Source: Flavobacteriaceae bacterium (GTDB lineage: Bacteria; Bacteroidota; Bacteroidia; Flavobacteriales; Flavobacteriaceae). Taken from it: a stretch of DNA of 64,000 nt. The position numbers and the translations under genes are program-made. The notes beneath the pieces are model-generated. The model saw only the letters and a program-made list of their open reading frames with translations. It ran no database searches and was not told the origin of the DNA. This document shows positions 1,018 to 6,520 of the stretch, piece after piece. The DNA is taken from positions 2,946,321 through 3,010,320 of the forward strand of contig CP031964.1 of assembly GCA_003443635.1 (NCBI GenBank), read 5' to 3'. How positions within the stretch are numbered: position 1 is the first letter of the stretch; each line of letters opens with the position of its first letter.

Positions 1018-1821
1018 ATGAATGCGTATTATTTTGATATAGAAAAAATTGCTAAGTATTTAAGTAATATTCAAAAACACATTGCTTCAGTTTATAAATG
1101 GAGTGTTAACTTGGATGGTTTATTACGATTGGATGTAATTTCGATAGAAGAAGTGTATGAGTTAAATCAGTATACTTTATACGAAAAAGAAATAGCATTA
1201 AAATTTATTTTAGAAAAAAAATTACAAGAATATTATAATACAAATCCAAAGCAATTTGAAGCTTTATGTATGTGGATTATTCAAGAATGGGGAGGTATAA
1301 AAGGAGCTAAATCTCATATAACAATGCCTCGCGTATATGAATTTATAAAGGCAGAAAAGCCAAAGTATGAAGCTCTCCCTAGTGTTTCTAAAGTAGGAAT
1401 GTTTATGTATCTCAATAAAAATATTATTTATGATACACGGGTAATTTATGCTTTAAATTGGATTATTTTATCTCAAAATGCAGGCACTCATTTTTTTCCA
1501 ATCCCAGGAGGTAGAAACTCAAAAATGAACGCCTTCAATATGGAGGTTTTAATTAGACTCTCCAAAGCTAAAAATTATAAACCTCAAAAGCGTTCAAATT
1601 TAAATAAACGAAATTATATTGAGATAATAGATGAAGCGCTATTTATTAAAGAATCTGAAGCCTATTATGAAGCGATTAAATTAATAGCCGCAATAAATAA
1701 AATATTATGGAAAGATGAAAAAGCACAGTATCCATTTTATACAGAGATGCTATTATTTTCTTCTGCTGATATCGAAATTTTTCATGACATCACTAATACT
1801 GTAATTTTAAATTTTGAATAA
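1018..1821 (+). CDS. Uncharacterised 267-residue cytosolic protein
   Basis: I do not recognise this protein with certainty. It has no signal peptide or membrane segment and is rich in lysine, tyrosine and isoleucine. The central stretch (about residues 105-150) runs from EWGGIKGAKSH through SVSKVGMFMYL to IIYDTRVIYALNWIIL. An SKVxxF...IYDSRV pattern of this kind occurs in bacterial proteins with an OGG-like DNA glycosylase fold; this is a resemblance from memory, not a demonstrated match. The ATG start follows an in-frame AT-rich leader with no clear ribosome binding site. Its last 29 bases overlap the end of the convergent ankyrin/PD40 gene. Confidence 0.7.
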   Translation: MNAYYFDIEKIAKYLSNIQKHIASVYKWSVNLDGLLRLDVISIEEVYELNQYTLYEKEIALKFILEKKLQEYYNTNPKQFEALCMWIIQEWGGIKGAKSHITMPRVYEFIKAEKPKYEALPSVSKVGMFMYLNKNIIYDTRVIYALNWIILSQNAGTHFFPIPGGRNSKMNAFNMEVLIRLSKAKNYKPQKRSNLNKRNYIEIIDEALFIKESEAYYEAIKLIAAINKILWKDEKAQYPFYTEMLLFSSADIEIFHDITNTVILNFE

Positions 1822-3166
1822 TTTTTGAATCGACCCAATAAATGTTTCCTCTACTGGTATAAAAAAAATAATTTCCGTCTGGTGATATCCCCGGAGCAAA
1901 TTCACTTCCTGAGGTATTTATTTTTTCTCCCATGTTTTTTGCTTTAGTCCAAGATCCATTTGCATTTTTAAAGCTCACATATAAATCAGAATTTCCTTTA
2001 CCTTCTGGTCTATTCGATGAAAAAATCACATAACCCTCATCAGGGGCAATTAGCGGATCATAATCTCTATGTTTCGTATTAACTGCATCACTCAGCGGAA
2101 TTGCTTTTTGATATTTCCCATTTTTAAACTCAGAATAAACAATATTGCTTGAACGACTAGGCCCTGTAGAAAAAAACAATGTTCCTTTTTTAGATATTGT
2201 AGGAAACCAATCTGCATATTCTGTATTAACATCTTCGCCTAAATGAATAGGTTTTCCCCATTTTTCTCCTTTTCGTTTCACCATCCATAAGTCTATACCT
2301 TTTATCGAATCTCCTTCTTTTACAGGCCTATTAGAACTAAAATACATTGCAGAACCATCACTTGTGATAAACGGATCTATTTCTCTGTAATCTCCTAGAA
2401 TATCAGCAGGTTCCGGTGTTGTCCATCTTTTATTTTTTAGCTTGGAGACCATAATAGTCCCTCCATGATACACACGAGATTCTACTGTATAATAAAATTC
2501 TTTTCCATCAGGCGAAAAAGTGGAACTATGTGTAGAATTTTCTGTAGAGACAAAATTATGCGCAAATATTTTAGGTTCTAATCCTGGTTTATCTTGACCT
2601 AAAAATTCTCCGCTAAATTCATAAGTTTTAATTTTATTTTTATCCGCACCTTTTGCAATAAGAAATTCTGCTATTTCGGTAGAGCCTTGTCGTATCGCTA
2701 TTGCTAAAGGAGTATTACCGCTATCGTTTAAAACATCTACATCTGTTATGTCATTAACCAACTGCTTAACAAAGTCTAAATCACCATTTATTACTGCCCT
2801 ATGTAAAGGGGAAGTTCCAACATTAATATTGGCATTTGCTGCTAAAAGCTTTTTAAATAATTCATCATTTCTAAATTGTACTGTAACAAACAATGGAGTA
2901 TGGTTTTGATTATCACCAACATTAACATCTATACCACGTTTTATTAAAAAATCAAGTGTTTTTTCTTGCCTACATCCAATTGCATAATGTGCCAGTGTTC
3001 TTCCTCTTCTATCTTTTACATTAATATCTGTTGTTTTTAATAATGAATCCAGTTTGCTAATATTACCTTCACAAACAGCTCTTTGAACAATCCGATCCTG
3101 AGCTATCATAGTCAATGAAATCATGGCAAAAGTTACTACTGCTGAAATTTTAATTATTCTTAACAT
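1793..3166 (-). CDS. Secreted ankyrin-repeat and PD40 (WD40-like beta-propeller) protein
   Basis: The protein starts with a signal peptide (first about 22 residues, ending near MIAQD). Residues of about 33-180 hold four to five ankyrin repeats, recognisable as GRTLAHYAI, HTPLFVTV, TSPLHRAV and NTPLAIAI units. Residues of about 205-457 hold five PD40-type blades, such as SPDGKEFYYT, TSDGSAMYFSSNRP and SPDGNYFFYTS, as in TolB and OmpA-linked PD40 proteins. Both halves are protein-interaction folds, and no catalytic motif is visible. It probably sits in the periplasm. It lies 12 bases downstream of the TonB-domain lipoprotein gene and is almost certainly its operon partner, under the TACTA-N6-TAGTA operators at 3674-3709. 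Confidence 0.85.
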   Translation of the reverse strand: MLRIIKISAVVTFAMISLTMIAQDRIVQRAVCEGNISKLDSLLKTTDINVKDRRGRTLAHYAIGCRQEKTLDFLIKRGIDVNVGDNQNHTPLFVTVQFRNDELFKKLLAANANINVGTSPLHRAVINGDLDFVKQLVNDITDVDVLNDSGNTPLAIAIRQGSTEIAEFLIAKGADKNKIKTYEFSGEFLGQDKPGLEPKIFAHNFVSTENSTHSSTFSPDGKEFYYTVESRVYHGGTIMVSKLKNKRWTTPEPADILGDYREIDPFITSDGSAMYFSSNRPVKEGDSIKGIDLWMVKRKGEKWGKPIHLGEDVNTEYADWFPTISKKGTLFFSTGPSRSSNIVYSEFKNGKYQKAIPLSDAVNTKHRDYDPLIAPDEGYVIFSSNRPEGKGNSDLYVSFKNANGSWTKAKNMGEKINTSGSEFAPGISPDGNYFFYTSRGNIYWVDSKIIQNLKLQY

Positions 3167-3178
3167 GTTTTATATATT

Positions 3179-3643
3179 TTAAGGGATCAATATAAATTCT
3201 ACAGAAGTAGATAATTCTGAATTGACCGGTTTTCCATTTTTCTTAGCTGGAATAAATTTTAATAACTTAATGCTATATACAAGGTTATCTATTATAGGTT
3301 TATTTATTTCCAAGACTTCTTTATCAGGTATAAGTCTACGTGCAATTGCTGTGTTTGCAGGCTTGTTAGTTTTTCTCATACTAGTTTTTACATTTTCCAC
3401 AGCTCCTGATTTGTTTACTGTCCAGGATACATTTACTATTCCAGCCCTATTTACATTCTCTTCACTTTTTGGGTAAATCATATAATGAGATATCACCCAA
3501 CCCATATCGTTTTCACCTTCATATATAGCATCTGTATCAGGTATAACATTTTTCTTTTCAGAAGAAGAGCTACAGGCTAACATAATAGTTATAAGAATTA
3601 GAAGAAAACCTCCCTTTACTTTATTAGTTTGTTTTGTTGTCAT
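3179..3643 (-). CDS. Lipoprotein with TonB C-terminal-like domain
   Basis: The N-terminus is a lipoprotein signal with lipobox MLAC and lipidation cysteine at residue 24, followed by SSSS. Residues of about 60-154 look like the TonB C-terminal fold: YPKSEENVNRAGIVNVSW, then a variable middle, then LLKFIPAKKNGKPVNS and a final beta strand. Unlike true TonB it has no N-terminal cytoplasmic anchor or proline-rich spacer, so it is unlikely to carry ExbB/ExbD energy itself. In Bacteroidota such orphan domains are common in secreted proteins, with unclear roles. It is the first gene of a two-gene operon with the ankyrin/PD40 gene. The promoter and tandem operator lie directly upstream. Confidence 0.8.
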   Translation of the reverse strand: MTTKQTNKVKGGFLLILITIMLACSSSSEKKNVIPDTDAIYEGENDMGWVISHYMIYPKSEENVNRAGIVNVSWTVNKSGAVENVKTSMRKTNKPANTAIARRLIPDKEVLEINKPIIDNLVYSIKLLKFIPAKKNGKPVNSELSTSVEFILIP

Positions 3644-3646
3644 GTC

Positions 3647-3699
3647 TATTATTTAATTATTATAATTCAAATCTACTATATTTTTAGTAATTCTACTAA
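3647..3699 (-). promoter_or_regulatory. Promoter of the TonB-lipoprotein operon, near-duplicate of the blaI promoter
   Basis: Read on the minus strand this block aligns without gaps to 5391-5443 upstream of the BlaI gene, with 44 of 53 positions identical by my count. Both contain the -7 box TAGATTTG (here 3668-3675) followed by GAATT. There is no canonical -33 TTTG; TTAGT occupies that place in both. The -7 box ends about 25 bases before the start codon. Confidence 0.6.
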
Positions 3700-3709
3700 A
3701 AATATAGTA
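3674..3709. promoter_or_regulatory. Tandem BlaI-type operator: two TACTA-N6-TAGTA sites 20 bp apart
   Basis: Site 1 is 3674-3689 and site 2 is 3694-3709, separated by 4 bp. Together they form one perfect inverted repeat with 17-bp arms (3673-3689 and 3694-3710) around ATTC. The same site spacing recurs at 5418-5453 beside the BlaI gene. The sites touch the -7 box of the operon promoter, as expected for repression. Assignment to BlaI is inferred from the matching arrangement. Confidence 0.7.
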
Positions 3710-3835
3710 GTAATTAACACTAATTAACTTTGAATCGATAATTAAATAATTACATGTCAACCAATTAATAATTATTTTAATAATTAATACTGAGCTACGA
3801 GGAAGCTTTGGTCAAACCTTTAAATATGAAGAATT

Positions 3836-5014
3836 TTATTTTTTTAGATCAAAAACAACAACACCATTTTCTCCGTTTTCTCCATATTTCTCTGCTGCTT
3901 TATCTCCTTTAATAATATTAATATTTCCTATATCTGACTGATTTAGATTCTTAAAAAAAGCATATGAAACTATGCGTTCATCATAACCATCTTTTAAAAC
4001 ATATAATGGTAGAATTCCTATATCTTCAGGCCCATTTCTTGTTAGTTTTATAAAAGGTTTGTTATCATTAATAGAAAATGTTATATCTCCTTTTAATTTA
4101 TTTTCATCTCTTGTATCTTGTTCTCTCAGTTTAACAGGTTTTACATTATCGCTTGTTTCTAGAAAAGAACTAAATATCAATATTAAAAACATTAGTGGTA
4201 AAAAAAGTATTGCTTTTAAATACCTACTTTTTTTATTTACTTTATTTTTAGCCATCATTTTAAATCTCTTTTTTAAGCTTATATTATTACTTAAATAACT
4301 TCCTATCTGTAATGAAGCTCCAGTTCGAACTTGAAACAACAACTGTTGATAATCTAATTGATTATATCCTTTTTTAAGAACTTGTTTATCTGCCATATAT
4401 TCATGCTCAGCCTTAATTCTTTTCCTGAAAAGCCATATAGCCGGATTAAACCAATACACAATAGTTAATATTTCTAGAATCAAAACATCAATAGAATGAA
4501 ACTGATCTCTATGAAATTGTTCATGAATTATGAGGGCATCTAATTCATCATCTTTCATATTATGGTTTCCAATAAACAAAATATTAAAAAAAGTGAATGG
4601 AGATAGTTTTTTATGTACAGTAACTACTTGAAACCCCCAACGTGCATATTTATTTGACTTAAAGTAAAAATTAATCAAAGTAAATATTCCAATTAAAAAG
4701 CGAGAAGAGAAGAGAATAACTCCAGCAATGTATATGATTAAATATATACTAATTGAGTTTTTAGAGGTTATTGTTGAGATTCCTTCTTTAAAATTTAAGG
4801 ATTCTTGTAATGCTTTAATTTCAATAGTTAGAAAATCTCCAGATATAAGAGAATTATTTATCGGAATGAATATAAAGCTGCAGGAAAATAATATACACGC
4901 AAAGCCAATAAACCTGTTTAACTGATGATTAGATCCATGCCTTATTACCCAATGATACAATGTATAAAGGATGATAAGGGATATACTGGATTTCAACAAA
5001 AAGCTTTCCATCAT
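3836..5014 (-). CDS. M56 (BlaR1/MecR1-like) membrane metallopeptidase sensor with plug-like C-terminus
   Basis: This is a membrane sensor-protease. Transmembrane segments lie near residues 5-22, 34-52, 90-115 and 268-287. Between the last two is the cytosolic zinc peptidase with HEQFH (164-168) and a downstream EHEYMADK that would supply the third ligand. The extracytoplasmic C-terminus (about 290-392) is not a penicillin-binding domain. It ends in DIGNINIIKGDKAAEKYGEN and NGVVVFDL, which resembles the plug motif of TonB-dependent receptors. In this family ligand sensing activates cleavage of the partner repressor. Its ATG overlaps the BlaI gene by 4 bp (ATGA), so the pair is translationally coupled. 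The ligand cannot be told from the sequence. Confidence 0.88.
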   Translation of the reverse strand: MMESFLLKSSISLIILYTLYHWVIRHGSNHQLNRFIGFACILFSCSFIFIPINNSLISGDFLTIEIKALQESLNFKEGISTITSKNSISIYLIIYIAGVILFSSRFLIGIFTLINFYFKSNKYARWGFQVVTVHKKLSPFTFFNILFIGNHNMKDDELDALIIHEQFHRDQFHSIDVLILEILTIVYWFNPAIWLFRKRIKAEHEYMADKQVLKKGYNQLDYQQLLFQVRTGASLQIGSYLSNNISLKKRFKMMAKNKVNKKSRYLKAILFLPLMFLILIFSSFLETSDNVKPVKLREQDTRDENKLKGDITFSINDNKPFIKLTRNGPEDIGILPLYVLKDGYDERIVSYAFFKNLNQSDIGNINIIKGDKAAEKYGENGENGVVVFDLKK

Positions 5015-5391
5015 TTTTTGTTTTTATCTTCAATTTTATTTTTAAAATGTTCAATTAACTCTTCCATTTCTTTGGTTGACAGTTCTTCTTTACTACTAAA
5101 CTCAGAAACCAAATTTTTAAAAGAATTAGAAAAATATTTTTTAATAAACGATTTCATAAATCCATTGGTATACTCTTCTCTTTTAATCAATGGATAATAT
5201 TCATGAGTATTTGCTATTGGTTTTCTTCCAACAAACCCTTTTCTTTCCAATATTTTAAATATGGTGGCTACAGTTGTATATGCAGGTTTCGGTTCTTCAT
5301 ACTCCTTAACAACATCTCTAATCACTCCTTTTTTGATTGACCAAAGAATTTTCATTGCTTTTTCTTCTGCTTTAGTTAACTCTAAATCCAT
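5011..5391 (-). CDS. BlaI/MecI/CopY-family repressor
   Basis: The 126-residue length fits the family. Residues of about 3-75 form a winged helix: AEEKAMKILWSIKKG, then the recognition region KPAYTTVATIFKILERKGFV, then the wing VGRKPIANTHEYYPL. The C-terminal third is the helical dimerisation domain, which the partner M56 peptidase would be expected to cleave. The gene is first in an operon with the M56 sensor. Its promoter region (5391-5459) holds two TACTA-N6-TAGTA sites, consistent with autoregulation. No beta-lactamase or penicillin-binding protein is next to it, so the signal is probably not a beta-lactam. Confidence 0.9.
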   Translation of the reverse strand: MDLELTKAEEKAMKILWSIKKGVIRDVVKEYEEPKPAYTTVATIFKILERKGFVGRKPIANTHEYYPLIKREEYTNGFMKSFIKKYFSNSFKNLVSEFSSKEELSTKEMEELIEHFKNKIEDKNKK

Positions 5392-5443
5392 ATTATTTTA
5401 TTAATAAAATTCAAATCTACTAAATTCATAGTAGATTTACTAA
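5391..5443 (-). promoter_or_regulatory. Promoter of the BlaI/M56 operon
   Basis: The minus strand carries the -7 box TAGATTTG (5412-5419), about 21 bases before the start codon, inside a block nearly identical to 3647-3699. The -33 position reads TTAGT rather than TTTG. The first operator covers and extends the -7 box. Confidence 0.6.
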
Positions 5444-5453
5444 TTTAATAGTA
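5418..5453. promoter_or_regulatory. Tandem BlaI-type operator between divergent genes
   Basis: Two TACTA-N6-TAGTA sites lie at 5418-5433 and 5438-5453, again 20 bp start to start. The first is part of a perfect inverted repeat with 10-bp arms (5413-5422 and 5429-5438). The second overlaps the plus-strand -7 box TATGTTTG (5452-5459) of the gene starting at 5483. One repressor could therefore control both directions. Confidence 0.7.
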
Positions 5454-5459
5454 TGTTTG
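5452..5459 (+). promoter_or_regulatory. -7 box of the divergent TonB-domain/TPR gene
   Basis: TATGTTTG fits the Bacteroidota -7 consensus TAnnTTTG and lies 23 bases before the ATG at 5483. It overlaps the right edge of the second operator. No clear -33 box is seen. Confidence 0.45.
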
Positions 5460-5482: not shown

Positions 5483-6520
5483 ATGAGACGTTTAAAATAT
5501 TATTTTGTGTTTTTACAATTAATAGCATTTATTAATGTTGCTAAAGCTCAATCTATTTTAGGCTCATGGGTAAGGATAAAAATGGAAACTTATCAAGGAG
5601 GTATAACAACTCAATTAGAAGAAACCAATAAAAATTATTTAAAATTTCATTTTAAAGACGGTAAAAATTTATCTATATCTACTCATTATGCTACAAATAG
5701 TTCAAATAGTCCCAGCACACAATACAGGATAAAAAATAATATTCTAGAATTTGGTTTTGACAGGAAATATTTAATAGAAAAAATTGATGCAATTAATTTA
5801 GTTATAGTAGAGTTTGAAGATGGTGAATTAGCTCCAAATTCAATTAAATCTATTTTTATTAGAGAACAAAAATACTTAGATAAGCTTCCACTGGCCATAG
5901 AAGACATAATCATAGGTAAAAATGATACTTTATATATAGAATCTAAAAAATTATATCCGCAATTTAAAACAATTGACCCTGATTTTCATGCACATTTAAG
6001 TAATCAAATGAACAGTTATTATCCCGTAGGAGAGAATTACTTTTTTGCTACATTCAATATTCATCCAGATGGTGAAATTGATCAAATTAAAATACTTCAT
6101 CATATAAATAAATCGACAGACAAAAAAGCGATGAAGGCAATTAAAGCTTCTGGTAAAATGTGGAGTTTACCTAAATTAAATGGCAAAAAAGTGACCATTA
6201 TCAAATTCATTGAGGATCGTTATGTCAAAAAAAGAGGTAATGATATTTCTAAAATTAGTTTTAATAAGTTGTCACATGTTCAAAACTCAAAATACTCTCC
6301 TGAATATTTATATAATTTTCATTTCTTAGCACGTAATTTATTAAATAACGAATATAAAAAAGCTCTAGAATTCATCTCTAAATTAGAAGAGATCAAGCCT
6401 AATGAAGCTAATTTATATTATTTAAAATATCTATGTTACCTTGAATTAGGAGATGAACAAAAATCAAATGAAAATTTATTATTACTAAAAAAGTCTAAGC
6501 TTAGATATCTAGTAAAATAA
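5483..6520 (+). CDS. Secreted protein with TonB C-terminal-like domain and C-terminal helical/TPR-like segment
   Basis: A signal peptide covers residues 1-22 (cleavage near AKAQ). Residues of about 25-135 look like a small beta-rich domain starting GSWVRIKME, of the lipocalin-like type. Residues of about 180-245 resemble a TonB C-terminal domain (FATFNIHPDGEIDQIKIL, then MWSLPKLNGKKVTIIKFI). Residues of about 270-340 form two helical hairpins of TPR style (ANLYYLKYLCYLELGDEQKS). I can assign no enzymatic activity. It is divergent from the BlaI gene and shares its operator region, so it probably belongs to the same regulon. Confidence 0.8.
   Translation: MRRLKYYFVFLQLIAFINVAKAQSILGSWVRIKMETYQGGITTQLEETNKNYLKFHFKDGKNLSISTHYATNSSNSPSTQYRIKNNILEFGFDRKYLIEKIDAINLVIVEFEDGELAPNSIKSIFIREQKYLDKLPLAIEDIIIGKNDTLYIESKKLYPQFKTIDPDFHAHLSNQMNSYYPVGENYFFATFNIHPDGEIDQIKILHHINKSTDKKAMKAIKASGKMWSLPKLNGKKVTIIKFIEDRYVKKRGNDISKISFNKLSHVQNSKYSPEYLYNFHFLARNLLNNEYKKALEFISKLEEIKPNEANLYYLKYLCYLELGDEQKSNENLLLLKKSKLRYLVK

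Follow-up and report, generated by a model that had tools for sequence, protein, structure and literature searches.

The closest known systems include the bla/mec operators of BlaI/MecI in Staphylococcus aureus and Bacillus licheniformis, where the operator dyads lie in a divergent promoter region, the repressor is autoregulated, and an M56 sensor is encoded next to it. The B. licheniformis operator OP1 contains CTTACATATGTAATA, which has the same 16-bp frame as the dyads described below (PMC3305447). In C. thermocellum, BlaI occupies two dyads (four protomers) per target and controls regulons of three and one operons, unlinked genes included, through GTCTAT/GACTAT half-sites that are unlike TACA (PMC8457756). 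The copper repressors CopY/CopR, which have the same protein fold, act on 16-bp dyads of the form RNYKACANNYGTMRNY, require the inner ACA/YGT, and sense copper (PMC7253601). Here, we analyzed a 64,000-bp stretch of a Flavobacteriaceae bacterium genome (hereafter, the window) that encodes a BlaI repressor and an M56 protease. To our knowledge, almost all that is known of BlaI repressors comes from beta-lactam resistance in Gram-positives and mycobacteria; for Bacteroidota, in which one genome can carry four of them, our literature search found no published work on their operators.

As in the bla and mec systems, the repressor of the window locus is a BlaI-family dimer, its dyads occupy a promoter region shared by divergent genes, and the layout is autoregulatory, with the M56 sensor encoded alongside. 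The locus differs from them in (i) its half-site, TACTA in place of the known TACA/TGTA core, with the inner CA/TG absent; (ii) the lack of a penicillin-binding sensor domain or, within the window, of a beta-lactamase or PBP target; and (iii) the tandem arrangement of its dyads, which are paired at a constant offset of 20 bp. C. thermocellum BlaI provides a precedent for both the two-dyad requirement and a small trans regulon (PMC8457756), although that system is Gram-positive, uses another half-site, is linked to the beta-lactam response, and was established by DAP-seq and EMSA, whereas the window system is known from its sequence. By our own comparison, TACTA also fits the outer NNYKA of the CopY operators, but the window BlaI is partnered with an M56 protease and its dyads do without the inner motif that CopY needs. 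Because the 16-bp frame and a CTA-N6-TAG core are common to BlaI/CopY operators and TACTA-N6-TAGTA, the latter is a variant of this operator and not a new type; what is new is the variant and its regulon, within a known kind of BlaI/M56 system.

Genes of the candidate regulon

The repressor gene (5011–5391, minus strand) encodes a 126-residue BlaI/MecI-family protein (Penicillinase_R, PF03965, E = 4.8e-29) that matches MecI and BlaI structures (MecI 1sd6/1okr, E about 1e-13 to 1e-12). It overlaps the gene for an M56 (BlaR1-type) membrane metalloprotease with an HEQFH motif and a short C-terminal extension (3836–5014, minus strand; PF05569, E = 4e-15), and the two form one leftward operon. Peptidase_M56 is the sole Pfam match of this protease; no penicillin-binding sensor domain was found on it, and its C-terminal ∼100 residues have no Pfam match. 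On the other side of the blaI promoter lies a divergent gene (5483–6520, plus strand) for an exported protein of 345 residues with a weak TonB_C-like segment (PF03544, below its cut-off), whose predicted structure (pLDDT 42) was too poor for use. The third transcription unit comprises the gene for a 154-residue lipoprotein with a TonB C-terminal fold (3179–3643, minus strand; PF03544) and, starting 12 bp behind it in the same operon, the gene for an exported ankyrin and PD40 beta-propeller protein (1793–3166, minus strand; PF12796, PF07676).

The original prediction had described this as a set of envelope proteins with no beta-lactamase in it. That description holds for the window, where our Pfam search found no beta-lactamase or PBP gene among the targets, which are TonB-like and ankyrin/PD40 proteins. 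It does not extend to the relative Leptobacterium flavescens, in which a PF00144 beta-lactamase-fold gene (L164:759–2282) lies directly behind the lipoprotein gene in the same operon. A PF00144 gene is likewise part of the blaI-M56 operon of genome G144, and L128:7138–8577 is a gene of this kind that follows blaI-M56 in an operon under the TACTA pair; there may thus be a tie to cell-wall chemistry. The regulon as a whole suggests envelope or TonB-linked sensing over antibiotic sensing.

Two tandem dyad pairs overlap three promoters

Four dyads in the window, listed here without strand, match all ten specified bases of TACTA-N6-TAGTA exactly, namely TACTAAATTCATAGTA (5418–5433, the blaI-proximal member of the divergent pair), TACTAATTTAATAGTA (5438–5453, proximal to the TonB-domain gene), TACTATATTTTTAGTA (3674–3689, promoter-proximal in the lipoprotein operon), and TACTAAAAATATAGTA (3694–3709, distal in that operon). 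An exact-match search found no further such dyad in the window. The prediction of two tandem pairs was borne out: at both 3674–3709 and 5418–5453, a dyad, a 4-bp gap, and a second dyad give a 20-bp offset, and the surrounding 53-base promoter blocks (3647–3699 and 5391–5443) are, as had been counted, 44/53 identical without gaps. The centers of the four dyads read TATTTT, AAAATA, AATTCA, and ATTTAA, and the inner ACA-NN-TGT of the canonical TACA/TGTA operator is absent from all of them.

Each pair also sits at its promoters in the same way. The pair at 5418–5453 is flanked by blaI and the divergent gene, with a −7 box at either side: that of blaI is TAGATTTG, also given as CAAATCTA (5412–5419, minus strand; 2-base dyad overlap), and that of the divergent gene is TATGTTTG (5452–5459, plus strand). 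On the lipoprotein side, the pair at 3674–3709 has the same arrangement with the box TAGATTTG (3668–3675, minus strand). All three boxes were read from the sequence, and the latter two are also found in Leptobacterium. In agreement with the claim that the sites touch TAnnTTTG boxes of three promoters, the first TA of each box is the outer end of a dyad, so a bound repressor would sit over the −7 element at each of the three promoters. Similarly, a G-W-W-T-T-G motif abuts the dyad in the blaI operators collected below (G, T, T, and G columns conserved in 51/63 each), where the dyad mostly lies 22–27 nt from the ATG.

We therefore consider it very probable, from these site positions and the comparisons that follow, that both pairs are operators of the BlaI encoded at 5011–5391, which would repress blaI-M56, the divergent 345-residue gene, and the lipoprotein/ankyrin operon, and that an M56 signal would derepress all three. 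In this scheme, each pair would be occupied by two adjacent BlaI dimers at a distance of about two helical turns, and the outer half-site over the −7 element would keep RNA polymerase off the three promoters. The positions of the sites suggest that blaI-M56 is autoregulated and that the TonB-domain gene and the lipoprotein/ankyrin operon are co-repressed with it. Given the known relation of repressor and protease in the BlaI/BlaR1 family (PMC3305447), the M56 protease would sense an envelope signal and bring about the removal of BlaI, which would turn on all three promoters together.

The pair, and not the single dyad, is rare in its own genome

The original prediction could have failed if the motif occurred at random across the genome, and the outcome depends on the unit that is counted. 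A single dyad occurs at 14 places in the 3.35-Mb genome, as compared with 12 for a reversed control; of the 10 outside the window sites, 8 lie within open reading frames. The single dyad is thus at chance level and carries no information by itself. The 20-bp pair, by contrast, has two exact occurrences and none for the control; two ordered dyads of the kind seen at C. thermocellum targets occur as an exact pair only at the two window places. Allowing up to three mismatches to the 36-bp pair pattern, the window matches are still 3674–3709 and 5418–5453 only, and dinucleotide shuffles of the window gave a mean of 0.02 and never reached two. Elsewhere in the genome, a three-mismatch pair at position 3021098 was rejected; it lies within coding sequence, at a junction of FecR-like and TonB-receptor genes.

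These counts bear on the reading of the dyads as palindromes that arise by chance in an AT-rich genome, or as RNA hairpins of a terminator or attenuator. The frequency of single dyads is what such a reading would lead one to expect, but the fixed 20-bp pair, with only 0.02 expected in the window, is not, and worldwide it is found almost only at blaI promoters (see below). Moreover, the half-sites and their offset are kept across differing spacer sequences, and the dyads are located at the −7 box, outside the leader, which makes this the most improbable of the alternatives that we weighed.

The pair is conserved at blaI promoters of Bacteroidota

When 84,980 species genomes were scanned, the exact pair turned up in 71 stretches, and the record titles of 65 of these name Bacteroidota. 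The predicted conservation near orthologous blaI genes was evident, in that 64 of the 71 are blaI promoters: 58 were recognized by an automatic search, which located blaI immediately downstream of the pair, and the others were added from a six-frame search (L157, L158, and L199), by reading of the sequence (L159 and L167), and as the G243 locus (L210). The pair at 5418–5453 thus has orthologous counterparts at orthologous blaI promoters. The seven remaining stretches (L164, L168, L197, L191, L151, L171, and L194) include the L. flavescens lipoprotein gene with its exact pair (L164). In a Cyclobacteriaceae MAG, an orphan M56 gene has its own exact TACTA pair (L168; L247:5087–6331), and blaI lies on another contig with the same pair (L153/L248). 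In Nafulsella turpanensis, an exact TACTA pair (L197:2324–2359) precedes a gene for an outer-membrane beta-barrel TonB receptor, with blaI downstream on the same strand. The other four were set aside. The exact pairs before a CarboxypepD-reg protein (L191), at a phage-type repressor (L171), and on an archaeal contig (L151) have no BlaI/M56 link and are either coincidental or unplaced; and the 20-bp pair before a TetR-type regulator in Agromyces cerinus, a GC-rich actinobacterium (L194:5652–5687), is probably an unrelated operator of similar shape.

In a survey of 400 genomes of the family, ten exact pairs were found in nine genomes besides our own, of which nine precede blaI and one precedes a lipoprotein homolog. 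Pairs with two mismatches were about as frequent as the reversed control and mostly away from blaI, and only exact pairs were therefore used. The sole other genome of the genus that was compared (G001) has neither an ortholog nor a pair, so the conservation rests on more distant genera. Likewise, no operator pair was found at a distant homolog of the 345-residue protein in genome G143.

Separately, Roseivirga sp. UBA6061 has three blaI loci (L241, L242, and L244), each with three tandem TACTA-like dyads in 20-bp steps, which indicates that the array can exceed two dyads.

An unlinked lipoprotein gene with its own pair in Leptobacterium flavescens

L. flavescens (G101/G423; L129, L130, L144, and L164) encodes a BlaI that is 82% identical to that of the window, an M56 protease that is 50% identical, and a divergent protein that is 52–53% identical. 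This ortholog of the 345-residue protein (53% identical) adjoins the same operator, and its −7 box is kept. The lipoprotein is 46–47% identical; its gene (at 720289) and blaI (at about 258500) are separated by about 460 kb, and an exact pair, the counterpart of 3674–3709, lies directly upstream of the lipoprotein gene. A trans target therefore exists, although the lipoprotein gene was seen in this role in only two species. The 4-bp gap is GAAT at the lipoprotein promoters and AATC/ATTC at the blaI promoters in both species; this promoter-specific sequence in both genera argues that the site at the lipoprotein gene is old and has been conserved, and is no fresh copy.

The adjacency of the two window loci and the 44/53 identity of their promoters might otherwise point to a recent duplication of the blaI promoter that left the lipoprotein gene with an operator of no regulatory role. 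In Leptobacterium, however, the unlinked lipoprotein gene has an exact pair, with a gap that matches the window lipoprotein promoter and neither blaI promoter. An idle copy, furthermore, would not have retained every one of its 20 specified bases as the protein diverged to 46–47% identity. We regard such a duplicate as very unlikely; the strongest case for the second pair as a genuine and old target comes from these L. flavescens lipoprotein comparisons.

Taken with the confinement of the paired address to two places in its own genome, this conservation, including a distant target in another genus, argues for a real circuit and against a chance repeat. The proposal that one repressor controls a set of envelope proteins is thus backed by comparative genomics, through both the conserved pairs and the unlinked L. 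flavescens target.

The lipoprotein resembles a detached sensor domain

In relatives with a window-type BlaI (e.g., L154, L176, and L177), the M56 protease has at its C terminus a periplasmic domain whose homology spans the entire lipoprotein (25–34% identity to the window protein; E down to 1.5e-17). The M56 proteases of the window and Leptobacterium carry the short C-terminal extension instead, which appears TonB-receptor-plug-like by eye (no Pfam match), and the TonB-like domain is encoded as a separate lipoprotein under the same operator. The PDB matches of the predicted lipoprotein structure (pLDDT 85) are TonB C-terminal domains, the best being 6i97 (E = 1.4e-4). Judged by homology, then, the lipoprotein is a free-standing homolog of the TonB-like periplasmic domain of the relatives' M56 sensors, and at least one member of the regulon appears to be a detached copy of a sensor part; it may continue to have a role in sensing.

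Four BlaI paralogs and a candidate operator code

The upstream regions of the relatives' BlaI genes contain four kinds of operator: T20 (TACTA-N6-TAGTA, 20 bp), A18 (AACTA-N6-TAGTT, 18 bp), A20 (AACTA-N6-TAGTT, 20 bp), and C (CTACA-NN-TGTAG, about 28 bp), the last being of the textbook TACA/TGTA type. All four have CTA-N6-TAG in the same frame. Our genome contains four BlaI/M56 loci, with one BlaI per class; T20 pairs are found at two places, A18 at one, and A20 at four (one at blaI and three unlinked), and C28 is found at its own blaI with two three-mismatch look-alikes. The A18, A20, and C28 sites do not overlap the TACTA pairs, and because the site sets are disjoint, we infer that the TACTA/20-bp code is private to one of the four paralogs and keeps the four circuits apart.

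The existence of paralogs nevertheless raises the alternative that another repressor, e.g., one of the other three BlaI proteins, binds the TACTA pairs and that the neighboring blaI is a mere target. The common CTA-N6-TAG core would make cross-binding possible. Every paralog, however, has a different pair in its own promoter; the TACTA pair tracks one BlaI lineage in the tree, on which the operator classes require 6 changes as compared with 54 when shuffled; and several of the surveyed genomes have the exact pair only at the gene of that BlaI. We thus consider a different binder improbable, if somewhat less so than a duplicated promoter, and retain the BlaI encoded at 5011–5391 as the likely repressor.

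Recognition-helix residues 42, 46, and 47 vary with the operator class: they are S-R-I in 26/26 A18 proteins, S-R-N/K in 18/18 A20 proteins, A-K-I in 50/62 T20 proteins, and A-K-R in 14/16 C proteins. In the alignment of BlaI with MecI, these positions correspond to Arg46 (42), Thr50 (46), and Arg51 (47) of MecI, where Arg51 and its neighbors contact the operator. Loss of Arg at position 47 correlates with loss of the inner CA/TG, and Arg versus Lys at position 46 correlates with an outer A versus T. Since an independent-contrast test of helix residues against operator class had too few independent changes to draw on (one supported, and up to four), this relation is a correlation from which a code can only be hypothesized.

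With about even or slightly lower confidence, we propose a broader picture for Bacteroidota, in which a cell may hold several BlaI/M56 circuits separated by an address code (flanking base T or A, presence or absence of the inner CA/TG, and offset of 18, 20, or 28 bp) that would be read by residues 42, 46, and 47, and in which, in the present branch, the TonB-like periplasmic sensor domain of one circuit has been released as a lipoprotein that remained under the operator of that circuit; induction would then also alter the level of a sensing component. Of all aspects of this system, the detached sensor domain and the presence of a four-way operator code within a single genome interest us most. 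The gains are an exact operator, a regulon of three promoters whose trans target is conserved, and a candidate protein–DNA code linking three helix residues to four operator types; such an operator code would let the regulons of uncharacterized BlaI/M56 systems be read from sequence.

The other three addresses in our genome were observed as follows. Tandem AACTA-N6-TAGTT pairs with a 20-bp offset mark a second BlaI regulon, at genome positions 1186538–1186573 (its own blaI), 46538, 2675501, and 3124879 (L257–L260), with none for the control. Besides blaI, these pairs lie before a DUF6624/TPR protein, before a putative esterase (PF00756), and near a CarboxypepD-reg/Plug receptor. The only AACTA pair with an 18-bp offset in the genome (3307755–3307788; L048 and L256) precedes the third BlaI/M56 operon, whose M56 protease carries a TonB_C domain. 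Finally, a CTACA-NN-TGTAG operator with a 28-bp offset (3265685–3265724; L050 and L261) precedes the gene for the fourth BlaI, which has an Arg at the position of MecI Arg51.
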